A DNA stretch of 64,000 nucleotides from Aneurinibacillus uraniidurans (GTDB lineage: Bacteria > Bacillota > Bacilli > Aneurinibacillales > Aneurinibacillaceae), in assembly GCF_028471905.1 (NCBI RefSeq), contig NZ_CP116902.1:1896501-1960500 (forward strand), given 5' to 3'. Of the stretch, positions 35,772 to 64,000 are shown in pieces. Numbering within the stretch: the first letter of the stretch is position 1; each line of letters opens with the position of its first letter. Under the pieces are notes generated by a model. That model worked only from the letters and a program-made list of their open reading frames with translations. It searched no databases and was not told the origin of the DNA. Position numbers and translations under genes: made by a program.

Positions 35772-35812
35772 AAATCCCTACGATCCAATAAAGGATCGTA
35801 GGGATTTTATCG
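35772..35812. terminator. Bidirectional terminator between MCP and CDF genes
   Basis: 15-bp stem AAATCCCTACGATCC / GGATCGTAGGGATTT between convergent genes. Confidence 0.9.
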
Positions 35813-49571: not shown

Positions 49572-49589
49572 GAAAATAACTAAATTAAA

Positions 49590-49628
49590 ATCCGATTTTC
49601 CTTGGTGCGTAGGAAAATCGGATTTTTC
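49590..49628 (+). terminator. Terminator of the ars operon
   Basis: 13-bp stem AATCCGATTTTCC / GGAAAATCGGATT and T run. 49629-49809 shows no gene. Confidence 0.9.
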
Positions 49629-59081: not shown

Positions 59082-59126
59082 TGTCGAATTCTTGCTACAT
59101 GGAGGTCTTTTTCTATGATAGAATTC

Positions 59127-59159
59127 TAAGTATCGATAATTTATTATTATCGATACTTA
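59127..59159. repeat. lox-like inverted repeat, candidate recombinase target
   Basis: Fully complementary 14-bp arms TAAGTATCGATAAT (59127-59140) and ATTATCGATACTTA (59146-59159) flank five bases. Read another way it is 13-bp arms around a 7-bp core TTTATTA. The size and plan match a tyrosine-recombinase core site (two inverted arm sites around a 6-8 bp spacer). It ends 27 bp before the recombinase start codon. No T run follows, so it is not a typical terminator. Confidence 0.55.
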
Positions 59160-59186
59160 TCTAAAAAGCACGAAAGAAGGGGAATC

Positions 59187-60158
59187 ATGGCTCATTCATC
59201 ACCTAGCGTGCGGTCTTCTACTACTCTTGTAGATACAAAACTCCAGCAACTCATTCAGGACGCTCGCTCGCATATCGATCACGCTCGGTCCGATAATACA
59301 CGACGGGCGTATGCTTCCGACTGGCGCAGCTTCGAAAACTGGTGTGCAGCCTATGAACTGGTTTCGCTTCCGGCAGAGGCAGCCACTGTCATTTTGTACA
59401 TAACAGACCTGGCGAACGATGGGTACAAGTTCAGCACAATCCGGCGCCATGTGTCTTCGATTTCGATTCGACATAAACTCATGCAGCATCCATCTCCTGC
59501 ACGCGACATTCATGTCATCGCCGCTCTCGATGGTATCGCCCGCAAAATCGGGAAAATGAGCACGCCAAAGAGAGCGGCCGAACTTGACTACATCGCAATG
59601 ATGGTTGATGCGATTGATACGAGTCGCTTACTTGGCTTGCGTGATAAAGCGATGATCCTACTAGGATTCGCTACAGCATCACGTCGCTCCGAACTAGTCA
59701 ACCTAACTACGAAAGATATTGAACGGAAGGCACGGGGAATTGTCGTCACGATTCATGCACATAAAACAAACGAAATTTTACGCAAGGGGATTGTTGCGGT
59801 TCATAGCGACTACTGCCCGATTCGGGCACTTGATGAGTGGATCGAGGCAGCGGGGATTACATCCGGCCCGTTGTTCCGGGCTGTGAATCGGTATGGTCAT
59901 GTAGCAGACAAAGCCCTTACATCACAAGTCGTTGCTAAAGTTGTGAAGCGTGCAGCAGAGGCAGCGGGTCTGAATCCAGATGAGTTCGCCGGGCATAGCC
60001 TGCGTTCCGGTATCGTCACGACATCCGGACAAAAAGGCTTCAATATTCAGGCTGGTATGAAACAAACCGGGCATAAAACGCCTGGGATGGTGATGCGCTA
60101 TCAGCAGGAAGGACAAATTTTTGATAACAATATCTCTAGTATGCTAGGGGATTTGTGA
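59187..60158 (+). CDS. Tyrosine recombinase (Cre/XerD-like)
   Basis: A 323-residue tyrosine recombinase. The core-binding domain is about residues 15-125 (ARSDNTRRAYASDWRSFENW). In the catalytic domain I assign Arg166 (ATASRRSELV), Lys193 (HAHKTNE), His270-x-x-Arg273 (GHSLRSG), His296 (TGHKTPG) and the nucleophile Tyr305 (MVMRYQQEG). It is intact. The organisation resembles phage/plasmid Cre-type enzymes more than chromosomal XerC/D. AAAGAAGGGG precedes the ATG. A lox-like inverted repeat lies just upstream and a McrBC-like module just downstream, which suggests a mobile defence element. Confidence 0.9.
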   Translation: MAHSSPSVRSSTTLVDTKLQQLIQDARSHIDHARSDNTRRAYASDWRSFENWCAAYELVSLPAEAATVILYITDLANDGYKFSTIRRHVSSISIRHKLMQHPSPARDIHVIAALDGIARKIGKMSTPKRAAELDYIAMMVDAIDTSRLLGLRDKAMILLGFATASRRSELVNLTTKDIERKARGIVVTIHAHKTNEILRKGIVAVHSDYCPIRALDEWIEAAGITSGPLFRAVNRYGHVADKALTSQVVAKVVKRAAEAAGLNPDEFAGHSLRSGIVTTSGQKGFNIQAGMKQTGHKTPGMVMRYQQEGQIFDNNISSMLGDL

Positions 60159-60339
60159 AATATAATCATAAGAGATTGTGAATACAAACCGATGTCAAAG
60201 AAGTGCTGCAAGTATCGTGATTTCAGCGTGTTTCCGCCTGAAGCGTTTGAGTAGGAATAACGAGAAAGTGATTATAGGGCAGCCAGATAAGCGATTGAGC
60301 CTGAGATGATAAGATAATTACACTAAATAAAAGGATAAG

Positions 60340-60368
60340 CCTGCACTAAATACTGTGCAGGTTTTTTT
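60340..60368 (+). terminator. Terminator between recombinase and McrB-like gene
   Basis: Stem CCTGCAC / GTGCAGG with an 8-nt loop and seven T. The preceding 60159-60339 shows no gene, though AAGTATCG at 60212 resembles one arm end of the lox-like repeat. Confidence 0.85.
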
Positions 60369-60424: not shown

Positions 60425-62662
60425 ATGATTCAGGCAGATAATGTCCAGGCTTTATTCGATTTAGAGTCACCATCAGAGCGTTGTGAGCGTGTGTTAAATG
60501 AAGTGCAACCAAAATTAAGGGGAATTCTTGATTTATTTAAGGAACGATATAGAGGATTATATCCCGAACTCAATCATTATGAAGTTCATACATATGAGTC
60601 TACTTTAAGAACTACAATGTATACTGCACGAGATCCTGAAATTGCTCAAAGTATACTTAGCAGAGGCAAAAAAGCATTTGTTCGATTACAAAAAAGCTTC
60701 GAATACGGAGATCCTGTTTCTTTACTACAAATTGAATTTAACGGAATAGAAAAGTTGATTCAAATTAAAATTGAATCAACTTTTTATCCATTATGGATGG
60801 GAGTAAAGGAAAATACTTTATCAGATATAATAGGGTCTTTAGGCGAAGACATTAAAGTTATGGTACAAGATCCAAATTTTCATGAGTTTGAAGTAAGGGA
60901 TTGTATAAACGAGATAAAAAACTATATTGAGAAAAAAAAGCAACCTTATTTTTCTTTTGGGGTGAGTATTCCATTAGAAGGTGAGATTAGTGAAGAATTT
61001 TTGGTTGAAAAGATTTGTTCAGTATGGGATAAGCTAGAAGATTTACGTAATTTTTTATTGGCAGATGCCGAAATCCACAGTAAAACTATTCATGTTATTG
61101 AACAGTTAAAAAGCCATGAAGGTAGTTACGAGGTTAGTTTATATAATCATAAATATGAAATCGAGTACCATAAGGCAGAAAAACCCAAACCCCATTTTCA
61201 CAGGCAGAAGTTCTCACTTTATGATAATGGTCAACTTATAGAGAAAGGACAAATTTTTTATTATTTGAATGTAGGAAAGTATCATCCCCATGAAGTTTTA
61301 TCTGTGATCATTAGTGGGCATGAGTATATTTTTACCGGCTTCAGACCATTAGTTCAAAGTGAACAATACCGTTGGGAAGTTAGTAAATTGTTCGCGATGA
61401 AGAATACAAACAATCATGAACTATTACAAAAAGCCATGACATCATTAAATGAGAATGGGATAGAAGCAGAAAACGGAAAGTACTATTTAGGAACGTATGA
61501 TAATGTAAAGAATTTCTTTGTTGAAAAAGTGGAAGATGTAAAAGAAAAGATTGCCAAAGCAGCACTTATATTTGCTGACGTGAGTGGAAGAAGACCATTA
61601 CCACGCGTGGATTTAATTCCAGTGATAGATAATAGCGGGTACCTAGATGATGAGTATGAAGGGCAATTGCTTACCAGCAACTTTGATTTGTTAAGCATTC
61701 TTGAAATTATTGGAGATAGCGGTTTTACTTTCTCAAAAGATATCATTCGAGACTTTCATTTAAGCTTAACTTCCCTTGATGATAAACATTTTGTTATTTT
61801 AAATGGCATATCAGGCACTGGAAAAACACAGCTTTGTCGCCTCTATGCAAACGCTGTTTATGGGCTTGACTATGAAGCAGAAAATCCTTATTTGTGTGTT
61901 ATTCCTGTAAGACCTGATTGGATGGAATCTACTGCTTTATTTGGGTATTATAGTTCATTTGAAAAAAGATATGTTGTAACGGAGTTTCTTGAAATTGTTT
62001 TACGGGCATTGAAGGAACGGGAAAAACCGCATTTTGTAATACTGGATGAAATGAATCTTGCTCGGGTGGAATATTATCTGAGTGATTATCTAAGTGCGGT
62101 TGAATCTAGGAAGCCAATTTGCCTTCATTCACAAGATAATGTGGCTGACGTTCCAAAAACAATTGAAATTCCTCCTAACTTGTACGTTATTGGAACAATA
62201 AATGTAGATGAAACAACACATAGTATTTCAGATAAAGTATTGGACCGTGCATTTGTTATGACTCTGTCAGATGTTGATTTCCAAAGGTTTTGGGGAAGTT
62301 TGGAGAATGATATTCAGGACGTACTTGATAGAGAATTTGAAATGCTATTGTCTGTTCACCAGAAGTTATTAAAATATGATTTACATTTTGGTTATCGGAC
62401 AATGTATGAAATGATAATGAAATTATATAGAAATCGGCAATTACCTGAAGATATACAGATGGAACAAATGAAGGCAGTTGATCGTGTCGTGAGTGAAAAG
62501 GTACTGCCTAAATTGCGTGGAGATGACAGGATCATGCCGCTATTAGAAGAACTATCTCAATGGTGTACCGAGCAATTAGGGATAGAAGCAGAATCGCTAC
62601 GGCATCTGGTACGCATGAAGGGAGAACTCGAACGATATGGGGCTACGCAATTCTGGCGTTAA
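60425..62662 (+). CDS. McrB-like AAA+ GTPase of a restriction system
   Basis: A 745-residue protein. The C-terminal part is a McrB-type AAA+ domain: Walker A GISGTGKT (461-468), Walker B with Asp541-Glu542 in VILDEMNLARVEYYLSDYLS, and the McrB signature GTINVDETTHSISDKVLDRA near 590-610. The 450-residue N-terminal region has no domain I recognise; it is charged and partly helical and may be the DNA- or target-recognition part. The ATG at 60425 follows GGGGGAGCC. The nuclease gene starts inside its 3' end, 26 nt before the stop, so the two are translationally coupled. Confidence 0.9.
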   Translation: MIQADNVQALFDLESPSERCERVLNEVQPKLRGILDLFKERYRGLYPELNHYEVHTYESTLRTTMYTARDPEIAQSILSRGKKAFVRLQKSFEYGDPVSLLQIEFNGIEKLIQIKIESTFYPLWMGVKENTLSDIIGSLGEDIKVMVQDPNFHEFEVRDCINEIKNYIEKKKQPYFSFGVSIPLEGEISEEFLVEKICSVWDKLEDLRNFLLADAEIHSKTIHVIEQLKSHEGSYEVSLYNHKYEIEYHKAEKPKPHFHRQKFSLYDNGQLIEKGQIFYYLNVGKYHPHEVLSVIISGHEYIFTGFRPLVQSEQYRWEVSKLFAMKNTNNHELLQKAMTSLNENGIEAENGKYYLGTYDNVKNFFVEKVEDVKEKIAKAALIFADVSGRRPLPRVDLIPVIDNSGYLDDEYEGQLLTSNFDLLSILEIIGDSGFTFSKDIIRDFHLSLTSLDDKHFVILNGISGTGKTQLCRLYANAVYGLDYEAENPYLCVIPVRPDWMESTALFGYYSSFEKRYVVTEFLEIVLRALKEREKPHFVILDEMNLARVEYYLSDYLSAVESRKPICLHSQDNVADVPKTIEIPPNLYVIGTINVDETTHSISDKVLDRAFVMTLSDVDFQRFWGSLENDIQDVLDREFEMLLSVHQKLLKYDLHFGYRTMYEMIMKLYRNRQLPEDIQMEQMKAVDRVVSEKVLPKLRGDDRIMPLLEELSQWCTEQLGIEAESLRHLVRMKGELERYGATQFWR

Positions 62663-64000
62663 ACTTCAAATATGGGATGATGCCATGGGAGAATGGGTCT
62701 TTCTTGATGAAATGTATTTTCAAGAAGCAAAATCTTATCGCTGGCGTTGGGCTACACCTGAAGAAATCACTTTTTCTATGCAGGGAATTTCACTTATGAT
62801 GAACCGTGTACAAGACCACTGGGAAGGGATAGTGGAAACTCCTTTTCAAAGTGGGATTGTTACATTTACAATCAAAAATTCAACGATGCAGCAGGCTATG
62901 ACGATTTCCATGCATATTTATCCTGATAATCGTAAATTAACAACTACACAGTACGAAAATATGATTCAGGATATTTTACAGGAAGCAGCTGTTTGTTTGA
63001 AATTCTCAGGCTTGTTTCATGGAGTTGATGTTCACGGAAGAAAACGTGAGGGTTCCTGGTTACAATGGGATTACATTGAACGTTCTATTACTCAGCTACG
63101 CTTTCTTTTTAAGGAGATTGCTACTCATCCCTTGCGTGTATTAAAAAAGGAAGAAAAAATAAAACGTATTGAACACGTTAAATATACGAATAATCGTACA
63201 ATTTTCTGGATGGAGCGTCATGGGGAAACGTATGGTGCCTCCCCAAGCACTTTGCCTACGCATCTTAAAACTTTTCAAATAAATGAAACATATGATGTAT
63301 ATGAGAATCGTGTTATAAAAGCGCAGTTGAATGAGTTAAGGCAGATACTGAAATGTTATGAGCAATCTTCTTATGAGATTGTTAGAATAAAAGCTCAAAA
63401 ATATAGCAATTGGGTTACATATTGGATCAATGATTCATTTTTACAAAATGTTACGTTGCATACCGGTAGCATAAAAATCACACAGGTTTTTCGAAAACAC
63501 CCGTATTACCGTTTTTGGTATCAATGGTTTCAACATTTATATGAAAACGCCCAGTATTCAATAGGATTTTCAAAATCTATTCCACTAAAAGATACCTATG
63601 AGCTATATGAAATATGGGGATTTATGCGAGTTGTTAAAGCATTTAGGGAACTTGATTTATTACAAGATACCTCAGAAATTTATGTAACCAGGGAAGATGA
63701 ATTATTCTTGGCGCTGGCTGAGAATAAGGGGAGTAAAGTAGCCTTAAAAGATGGTGGGGTTTTATATTATCAAAAAATAATACAAAACAATACGCATCCT
63801 TATTACTCCTATACACAAAGGATGATTCCAGATATTGTATTGGAAAGAAGGGATCATTTAGTAGTGTTTGATCCGAAATATCGTGTTGAACATAATATGG
63901 GGACAGCTTTAGGAGAAATGCATAAATATCGGGATGGGATTTTGCATCAAGAAGATGGACAAAGAGCTGTTACGCATGCTTTTATATTAACACCGAAAAA
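62637..64000 (+). CDS. DUF2357/PD-(D/E)XK nuclease, McrC-like partner (partial)
   Basis: A frame open from the ATG at 62637 to the window end (454 codons, no stop), so the gene is incomplete here. GGAG lies about 12 nt upstream; the in-frame ATG at 62685 is an alternative. The middle has a DUF2357-like region (FQINETYDVYENRVIKAQLN, then RKHPYYRFWYQWFQHLYEN). Near the end is a PD-(D/E)XK nuclease core: Pro398-Asp399 (MIPDIVLER) and Asp412-x-Lys414 (VVFDPKYRV). Proteins of this type are the nuclease partner of McrB-like GTPases. The 26-nt overlap with the GTPase gene supports a two-subunit restriction enzyme. Confidence 0.82.
   Translation, partial: MGLRNSGVKLQIWDDAMGEWVFLDEMYFQEAKSYRWRWATPEEITFSMQGISLMMNRVQDHWEGIVETPFQSGIVTFTIKNSTMQQAMTISMHIYPDNRKLTTTQYENMIQDILQEAAVCLKFSGLFHGVDVHGRKREGSWLQWDYIERSITQLRFLFKEIATHPLRVLKKEEKIKRIEHVKYTNNRTIFWMERHGETYGASPSTLPTHLKTFQINETYDVYENRVIKAQLNELRQILKCYEQSSYEIVRIKAQKYSNWVTYWINDSFLQNVTLHTGSIKITQVFRKHPYYRFWYQWFQHLYENAQYSIGFSKSIPLKDTYELYEIWGFMRVVKAFRELDLLQDTSEIYVTREDELFLALAENKGSKVALKDGGVLYYQKIIQNNTHPYYSYTQRMIPDIVLERRDHLVVFDPKYRVEHNMGTALGEMHKYRDGILHQEDGQRAVTHAFILTPK

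Follow-up and report, generated by a model that had tools for sequence, protein, structure and literature searches.

The window, by which we mean the whole 64,000-nucleotide stretch of chromosome analyzed here, contains a plus-strand gene (59187-60158) whose predicted product of 323 amino acids retains an intact R-K-H-R-H-Y catalytic set (R167, K193, H270, R273, H296 and Y305, all of them invariant or nearly so among relatives) and a Phage_integrase domain (PF00589) scoring 64.2 bits against a cut-off of 27. By these features, the protein is a member of the tyrosine recombinase superfamily. Its scores against the curated NCBIfam models for XerD (63 bits for a cut-off of 330), XerC (55 for 335), XerA (57 for 220) and XerS (27 for 267) are all below threshold, and on this evidence it is not an equivalog of any of these proteins. 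A profile search of solved structures returns Cre as the top match (7e-29, with XerD at 3e-16), and the AlphaFold model of the protein (mean pLDDT of 87) aligns to Cre with a TM score of 0.79 and to XerH with at most 0.57. Sequence and modeled fold hence agree that the recombinase is Cre-like, and not of the XerC, XerD, XerS or XerH type. In the tree, it groups with proteins of Mesobacillus, Niallia, Neobacillus, Bacillus and G192 (97/96), and the entire Cre-like family is separate from the XerC and XerD of the host genome itself, while P1 Cre forms a long branch without a settled placement.

The gene is preceded, at a distance of 27 bp, by a 33-bp inverted repeat (59127-59159) of sequence TAAGTATCGATAA TTTATTA TTATCGATACTTA, which can validly be read either as 14-bp arms around a 5-bp spacer or as a 13-7-13 arrangement. 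Both the perfect repeat and its spacing to an intact Cre-like recombinase were confirmed as the sequence-only reading had given them. Under the 13-7-13 reading, the palindrome resembles lox and dif sites, with a left half-site TAAGTATCGATAA (59127-59139, plus strand) and a right half-site TTATCGATACTTA (59147-59159, minus strand) enclosing an asymmetric 7-bp central region, TTTATTA (59140-59146), that is presumed to be the crossover region. By chance, perfect 14-bp arms separated by 5 bp would arise about 0.0003 times in 64 kb of the window composition. Nonetheless, the window has three further inverted repeats (35772-35807, 49587-49626 and 60750-60784) whose arms match perfectly over 13 bp or more, so that symmetry alone is weak proof and comparison must decide.

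Upstream of the repeat lies a promoter-like match, TTGCTA-16-TATGAT (59092-59119, plus strand), which is a match to consensus of a kind found twice against 2.7 expected by chance. It stops 8 bp 5' of the site and, on this prediction, transcription would begin on or near the first base of the site. Because the site overlaps this predicted start, the recombinase probably regulates its own gene, with occupancy of the site probably repressing transcription, although this suggestion derives from a weak consensus match. The earlier proposal that the site affects expression of the recombinase is consequently plausible by occupancy, but not by inversion.

Among seven genomes of the genus, an orthologue of the recombinase (97% amino acid identity) was found in G004 only, the module being present in two of the seven congeners. 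The G004 gene is preceded by an identical 33-bp repeat, contained in an 80-bp leader (59107-59186, plus strand) that is likewise identical between the two species at a gene dS of 0.36, and the dN/dS ratio of 0.038 reveals strong purifying selection on the recombinase gene. The block that can be aligned with G004 extends only from 59095 to 60345. On one side, 5.9 kb of inserted DNA with RND efflux genes is present in G004; on the other, the McrBC-like pair found downstream of the recombinase in the window is missing. Since both flanks differ, what is conserved as a unit is the recombinase with its site, and the McrBC-like genes are chance neighbors, their membership in the unit having been rejected on account of their absence beside the orthologous module. 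The pair itself (60425-63999) comprises an AAA ATPase (PADLOC PDC-M26A, 6.6e-52) and a DUF2357/PDDEXK_7 protein, and a terminator-like hairpin (60337-60364, plus strand) between it and the recombinase gene points to a separate transcription unit.

This comparison also bears on whether recombination might invert or excise the adjacent segment, McrBC-like genes included, as a local DNA switch. A recombinase adjoining its site and a defence-like pair downstream would suit such a switch, but a search of the whole 3.85-Mb genome, with as many as three mismatches allowed, revealed no second copy of the site, where an invertible or excisable element would be flanked by two. Moreover, G004 keeps site and recombinase with other neighbors on both sides, and homology between the two species breaks 32 bp outside the site and not inside its core. 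Excision of the McrBC-like module, as initially envisaged, finds no support in these results, and we consider a local switch extremely improbable.

A shared motif upstream of distant relatives

Relatives of the recombinase at 35-46% identity were gathered from plasmids, Bacilli genomes, genome contigs and viral contigs, those on genome contigs being recovered with an alignment query where a single-sequence scan of the same contigs gave none. Those closest to the window protein are plasmid-borne in Mesobacillus and Niallia, or encoded in genomes of Neobacillus and Bacillus. A perfect match to the motif CGATAA-N7-TTATCG appears in 18 of the 32 genomes or plasmid records (0/32 for the reversed control). 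The motif is present in 21 of the 36 oriented class-level and plasmid loci, in every case 5' of the recombinase gene and at a distance from the start codon of either about -30 to -60 or -500 to -990. Across 160 contig loci, inverted repeats with a 7-bp spacer precede the gene in 53-59, against about 10 in the downstream control, and the specific motif is present in 72, a few instances of which lie far from the gene and may be due to chance. Several relatives (e.g. L040, L043, L045, L048, L053, L059 and L060) have no site in the part of the locus that was read, and a second G192 site (C2:44650) was set aside for the poor symmetry of its outer arms.

The arms of these sites covary. In 46 distinct sites, 329 of 414 outer-arm cells are symmetric, against a mean of 221.5 and a maximum of 246 in 2000 shuffles, a contrast that the shared ancestry of the sites prevents from being a strict probability, and at several outer-arm positions the base shared by the two arms takes three or four different identities. 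Covarying arms are what would be predicted if a single protein binds both half-sites. Taken together, the association of site and gene in very distant homologues, the fixed 7-bp spacing and the covariation of the arms make it very probable that the 33-bp repeat is the recombinase's own target site, a role that the sequence-only reading had proposed and that now receives strong support from comparative data. Further copies of the site, which that reading called for, are absent from the host genome at up to three mismatches but are supplied, as the motif, by relatives, and the repeat is retained upstream of the close orthologue. A lone genomic copy does not refute the role as target, since dif and P1 loxP also function at one copy per replicon. 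These natural enzyme-site pairs, with their covarying half-sites, additionally provide a data set for the study of recombinase specificity.

The palindrome could instead be an operator only, bound by the recombinase or by a repressor for transcription control while recombination takes place elsewhere. Its overlap with the predicted transcription start and its placement between -30 and -60 in many relatives would be congruent with such a function. In other relatives, however, the site lies 500-990 bp upstream, at times past other genes, or several kb off; its 7-bp core is conserved within lineages, and no other conserved candidate site emerges. It seems reasonable, hence, to regard a purely regulatory palindrome as highly unlikely.

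The longer spacing is exemplified by the Alicyclobacillus plasmids L035 and L036, in which the site is located some 780-990 bp 5' of the recombinase and an AbrB-like gene plus a PIN-domain or hypothetical gene, reminiscent of a toxin-antitoxin pair, occupy the interval. Similar spacing is seen in L041, L042, L044, L052, L058 and L061.

Position at the replication terminus

The 33-bp site corresponds to genome positions 1955627-1955659, 19 kb from the canonical dif of the host genome (TTTGTCCGATAATATATATTATGTTAA, at 1974571), which was missed by a strict firmicute dif pattern and found with a relaxed one. GC skew, sampled along the chromosomes and not computed over their entirety, turns from positive to negative in the host at about 1.964-1.98 Mb. 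In G004, dif lies at 2579497 and the site at about 2560000, a spacing like that of the host and likewise at the GC-skew terminus. The host genome has a single site per chromosome, at the terminus, as chromosome dimer resolution systems do. It also encodes XerC and XerD, both scoring above their cut-offs.

Three Thermoactinomycete-like chromosomes, from a clade with Marinithermofilum and Paludifilum, have at their midpoint, near the skew switch, the recombinase gene along with one matching site, and a dif pattern search found no canonical dif in them. The lox-like site of these genomes (L162:5726-6924, L164 near 7638 and L163 near 11911) is no more than a few kb from the Cre-like gene and from a second, Xer-like recombinase of 363 amino acids that falls below the XerS cut-off (170 against 267 bits), and in two of the three it is closer to the Xer-like one. 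Among plasmids, the site is roughly 15 kb or less from the skew switch on the 1.44-Mb megaplasmid of Niallia, and away from the terminus switch on the 551-kb plasmid of Mesobacillus.

We judge it probable, on comparative sequence evidence, that gene and site form a single-recombinase, single-site module of the Cre/lox type for the resolution of replicon dimers, in this case a chromosomal one. A dimer of the recombinase would occupy the pair of 13-bp half-sites, and the enzyme would synapse two copies of the site, which coexist only after replication or in fused sister replicons; strand exchange inside the 7-bp central region would then convert dimers to monomers. With only a single site in each replicon, neither inversion nor excision of a local segment can be the normal product, and dimer resolution agrees with such an arrangement. 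Against this assignment, the host already possesses XerC, XerD and dif, which would render dimer resolution by the module redundant here. Its patchy presence in the genus, the off-terminus site of Mesobacillus, the relatives devoid of a site and the Xer-like neighbor in two genomes also count against it. Coexisting with XerC, XerD and dif, the module may be a back-up, specialized or a relic in the host; it could act as a back-up terminus resolution system or have been domesticated from a plasmid-type ancestor. For the host species, it amounts to a candidate second terminus recombination module beside XerCD/dif.

Alternatively, the module could be a mere passenger, the dimer-resolution cassette of an integrated plasmid left in a plastic terminus region with no chromosomal role. 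Terminus regions gather insertions, and the plasmid location of several of its closest relatives, together with Neobacillus and Bacillus genomes, its occurrence in two of seven congeners and the differing flanks of the two species are all in line with that history. An omega of 0.038, coupled with an 80-bp leader that has stayed identical at a dS of 0.36, is not, and such selection speaks against a dead relic; neither is the 19-kb distance to dif, which is the same in both species, nor the fact that no plasmid replication or partition genes were recognized among the neighboring ORFs inspected. We deem such an origin without present function unlikely, and retain dimer resolution as the preferred interpretation.

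Two observations concern the host dif itself. Some 285 bp past it, three minus-strand genes (genome 1974883-1979437; L165:14884-19438) look like a transposition set of the Tn7/Tn5053 type, with AAA and rve domains, which is not found beside dif in G004. In addition, the XerC arm of dif in the host group (GTCCGATAA, G000:C1:1974571) resembles the lox-like half-site (tcCGATAA), a likeness that suggests shared ancestry or cross-recognition.

SAR11 genomes and pelagiphages

The relatives extend to the Pelagibacteraceae (SAR11), whose genomes are mostly partial single-cell assemblies. All 39 SAR11 loci (among L209-L260) present the motif, exclusively with a spacer of 7, and 38 of them share the core TTAATTG. 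In each of eight SAR11 genomes (G399-G406), the one protein with a Phage_integrase domain is a relative of 325 amino acids whose gene is preceded by the site, and no other tyrosine recombinase was found in any of the eight. The skew switch falls within the interval holding the gene in all five SAR11 contigs sampled, and in two contigs the cumulative skew, as far as the sequence was read, peaks 3 and 13 kb from the gene.

Carnoy and Roten (2009) reported that Pelagibacter ubique lacks a dif/Xer system, found no evidence at the time of loxP/Cre-like systems in dif/Xer-deficient proteobacteria, and asked whether a Cre/loxP-like system replaces dif/Xer in Pelagibacter (PMC2731167). In E. coli, Cre/loxP substitutes for dif/Xer only when loxP is placed at the terminus (PMC2731167).

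The exact SAR11 site is also present in three phage contigs, next to terminase genes (L366:4150-4179, L367:13659-13688 and L368:1780-1809), and lies between the small and large terminase genes in both contigs that have the two subunits. These contigs are related to pelagiphages. No recombinase was detected in the stretch read of any of them, and in carrying a site without a recombinase of their own they resemble elements that exploit Xer. Possibly, the phage copy is an attP that makes use of the host enzyme; the conservation of site and core beside terminase genes fits this function and not that of an operator, which weighs again against a palindrome devoted to transcription control. A comparison of the 37-nt SAR11 site with 50,697 named phages yielded two Pelagibacter phages as best matches, with imperfect copies. 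Greip and HTVC024P were rejected as carriers, having only imperfect copies (a 6-bp spacer; an altered arm), as was pelagiphage HTVC106P, which lacks the site.

On balance, we incline to the view that these proteins belong to a Cre-type family, so far undescribed, in which a single recombinase resolves chromosome dimers. The family would range from chromosomes and megaplasmids of Bacilli as far as SAR11; there it would take on the dif/Xer role reported missing from Pelagibacter, and pelagiphages would bear the site so as to exploit the recombinase of their host. Subscription papers and preprints aside, no description of this Cre-like family or of a SAR11 dimer-resolution system was found in the literature searched, and the family-wide site and the link to SAR11 are new. 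The SAR11 evidence points to a Cre-like replacement for dif/Xer with a named site, gene, position and candidate phage hijackers, so that the question of the missing Pelagibacter dimer-resolution system becomes directly testable.

Relation to known recombination systems

The Cre-type systems described to date include Cre/loxP of phage P1, VCre/VloxP, SCre/SloxP, Vika/vox, Nigri/nox and Panto/pox (PMC4957104). The module resembles them in its simple two-domain tyrosine recombinase, which is nearest to Cre by fold and profile, and in pairing a single enzyme with a single near-palindromic site that is roughly 34 bp long, has 13-bp arms and lies close to the gene. The protein, though, is only about 20-24% identical to Cre, and the site differs from loxP in arm sequence and in length (33 bp with 7 bp between the 13-bp arms, against 34 bp with an 8-bp spacer). 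In contrast to Cre/loxP, the module lies at the terminus of a bacterial chromosome. It would work like Cre/lox, but we do not class it as a member of Cre/loxP, given a spacing fixed at 7 bp throughout the clade instead of the 8-bp spacer of a 34-bp site.

Single-recombinase systems acting on one terminus site are also known in XerS/difSL of streptococci and lactococci and in XerH/difH of Helicobacter and Campylobacter, and xerS, like the gene reported here, adjoins its own site (PMC5357621). Nevertheless, the window protein reaches only 27 of the 267 bits set as the XerS cut-off and is far nearer to Cre in fold, and in difSL the arms are imperfect and the central region spans 11 bp (PMC5357621). 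XerL/dif of the Legionellales sets a precedent for a divergent single-recombinase dimer resolution system missed by homology searches, with a site that mobile elements use and a plasmid-borne member in Coxiella (PMC9765430). XerL has been described in Legionellales only (PMC9765430), and the likeness of the present family to it is one of published description. XerCD/dif, lastly, which the host also carries in full, differs in relying on two recombinases and a 6-bp center, but it likewise joins tyrosine recombinases to a site at the terminus, and the inner XerC half-site of the host dif (GTCCGATAA) resembles the half-site of the window.
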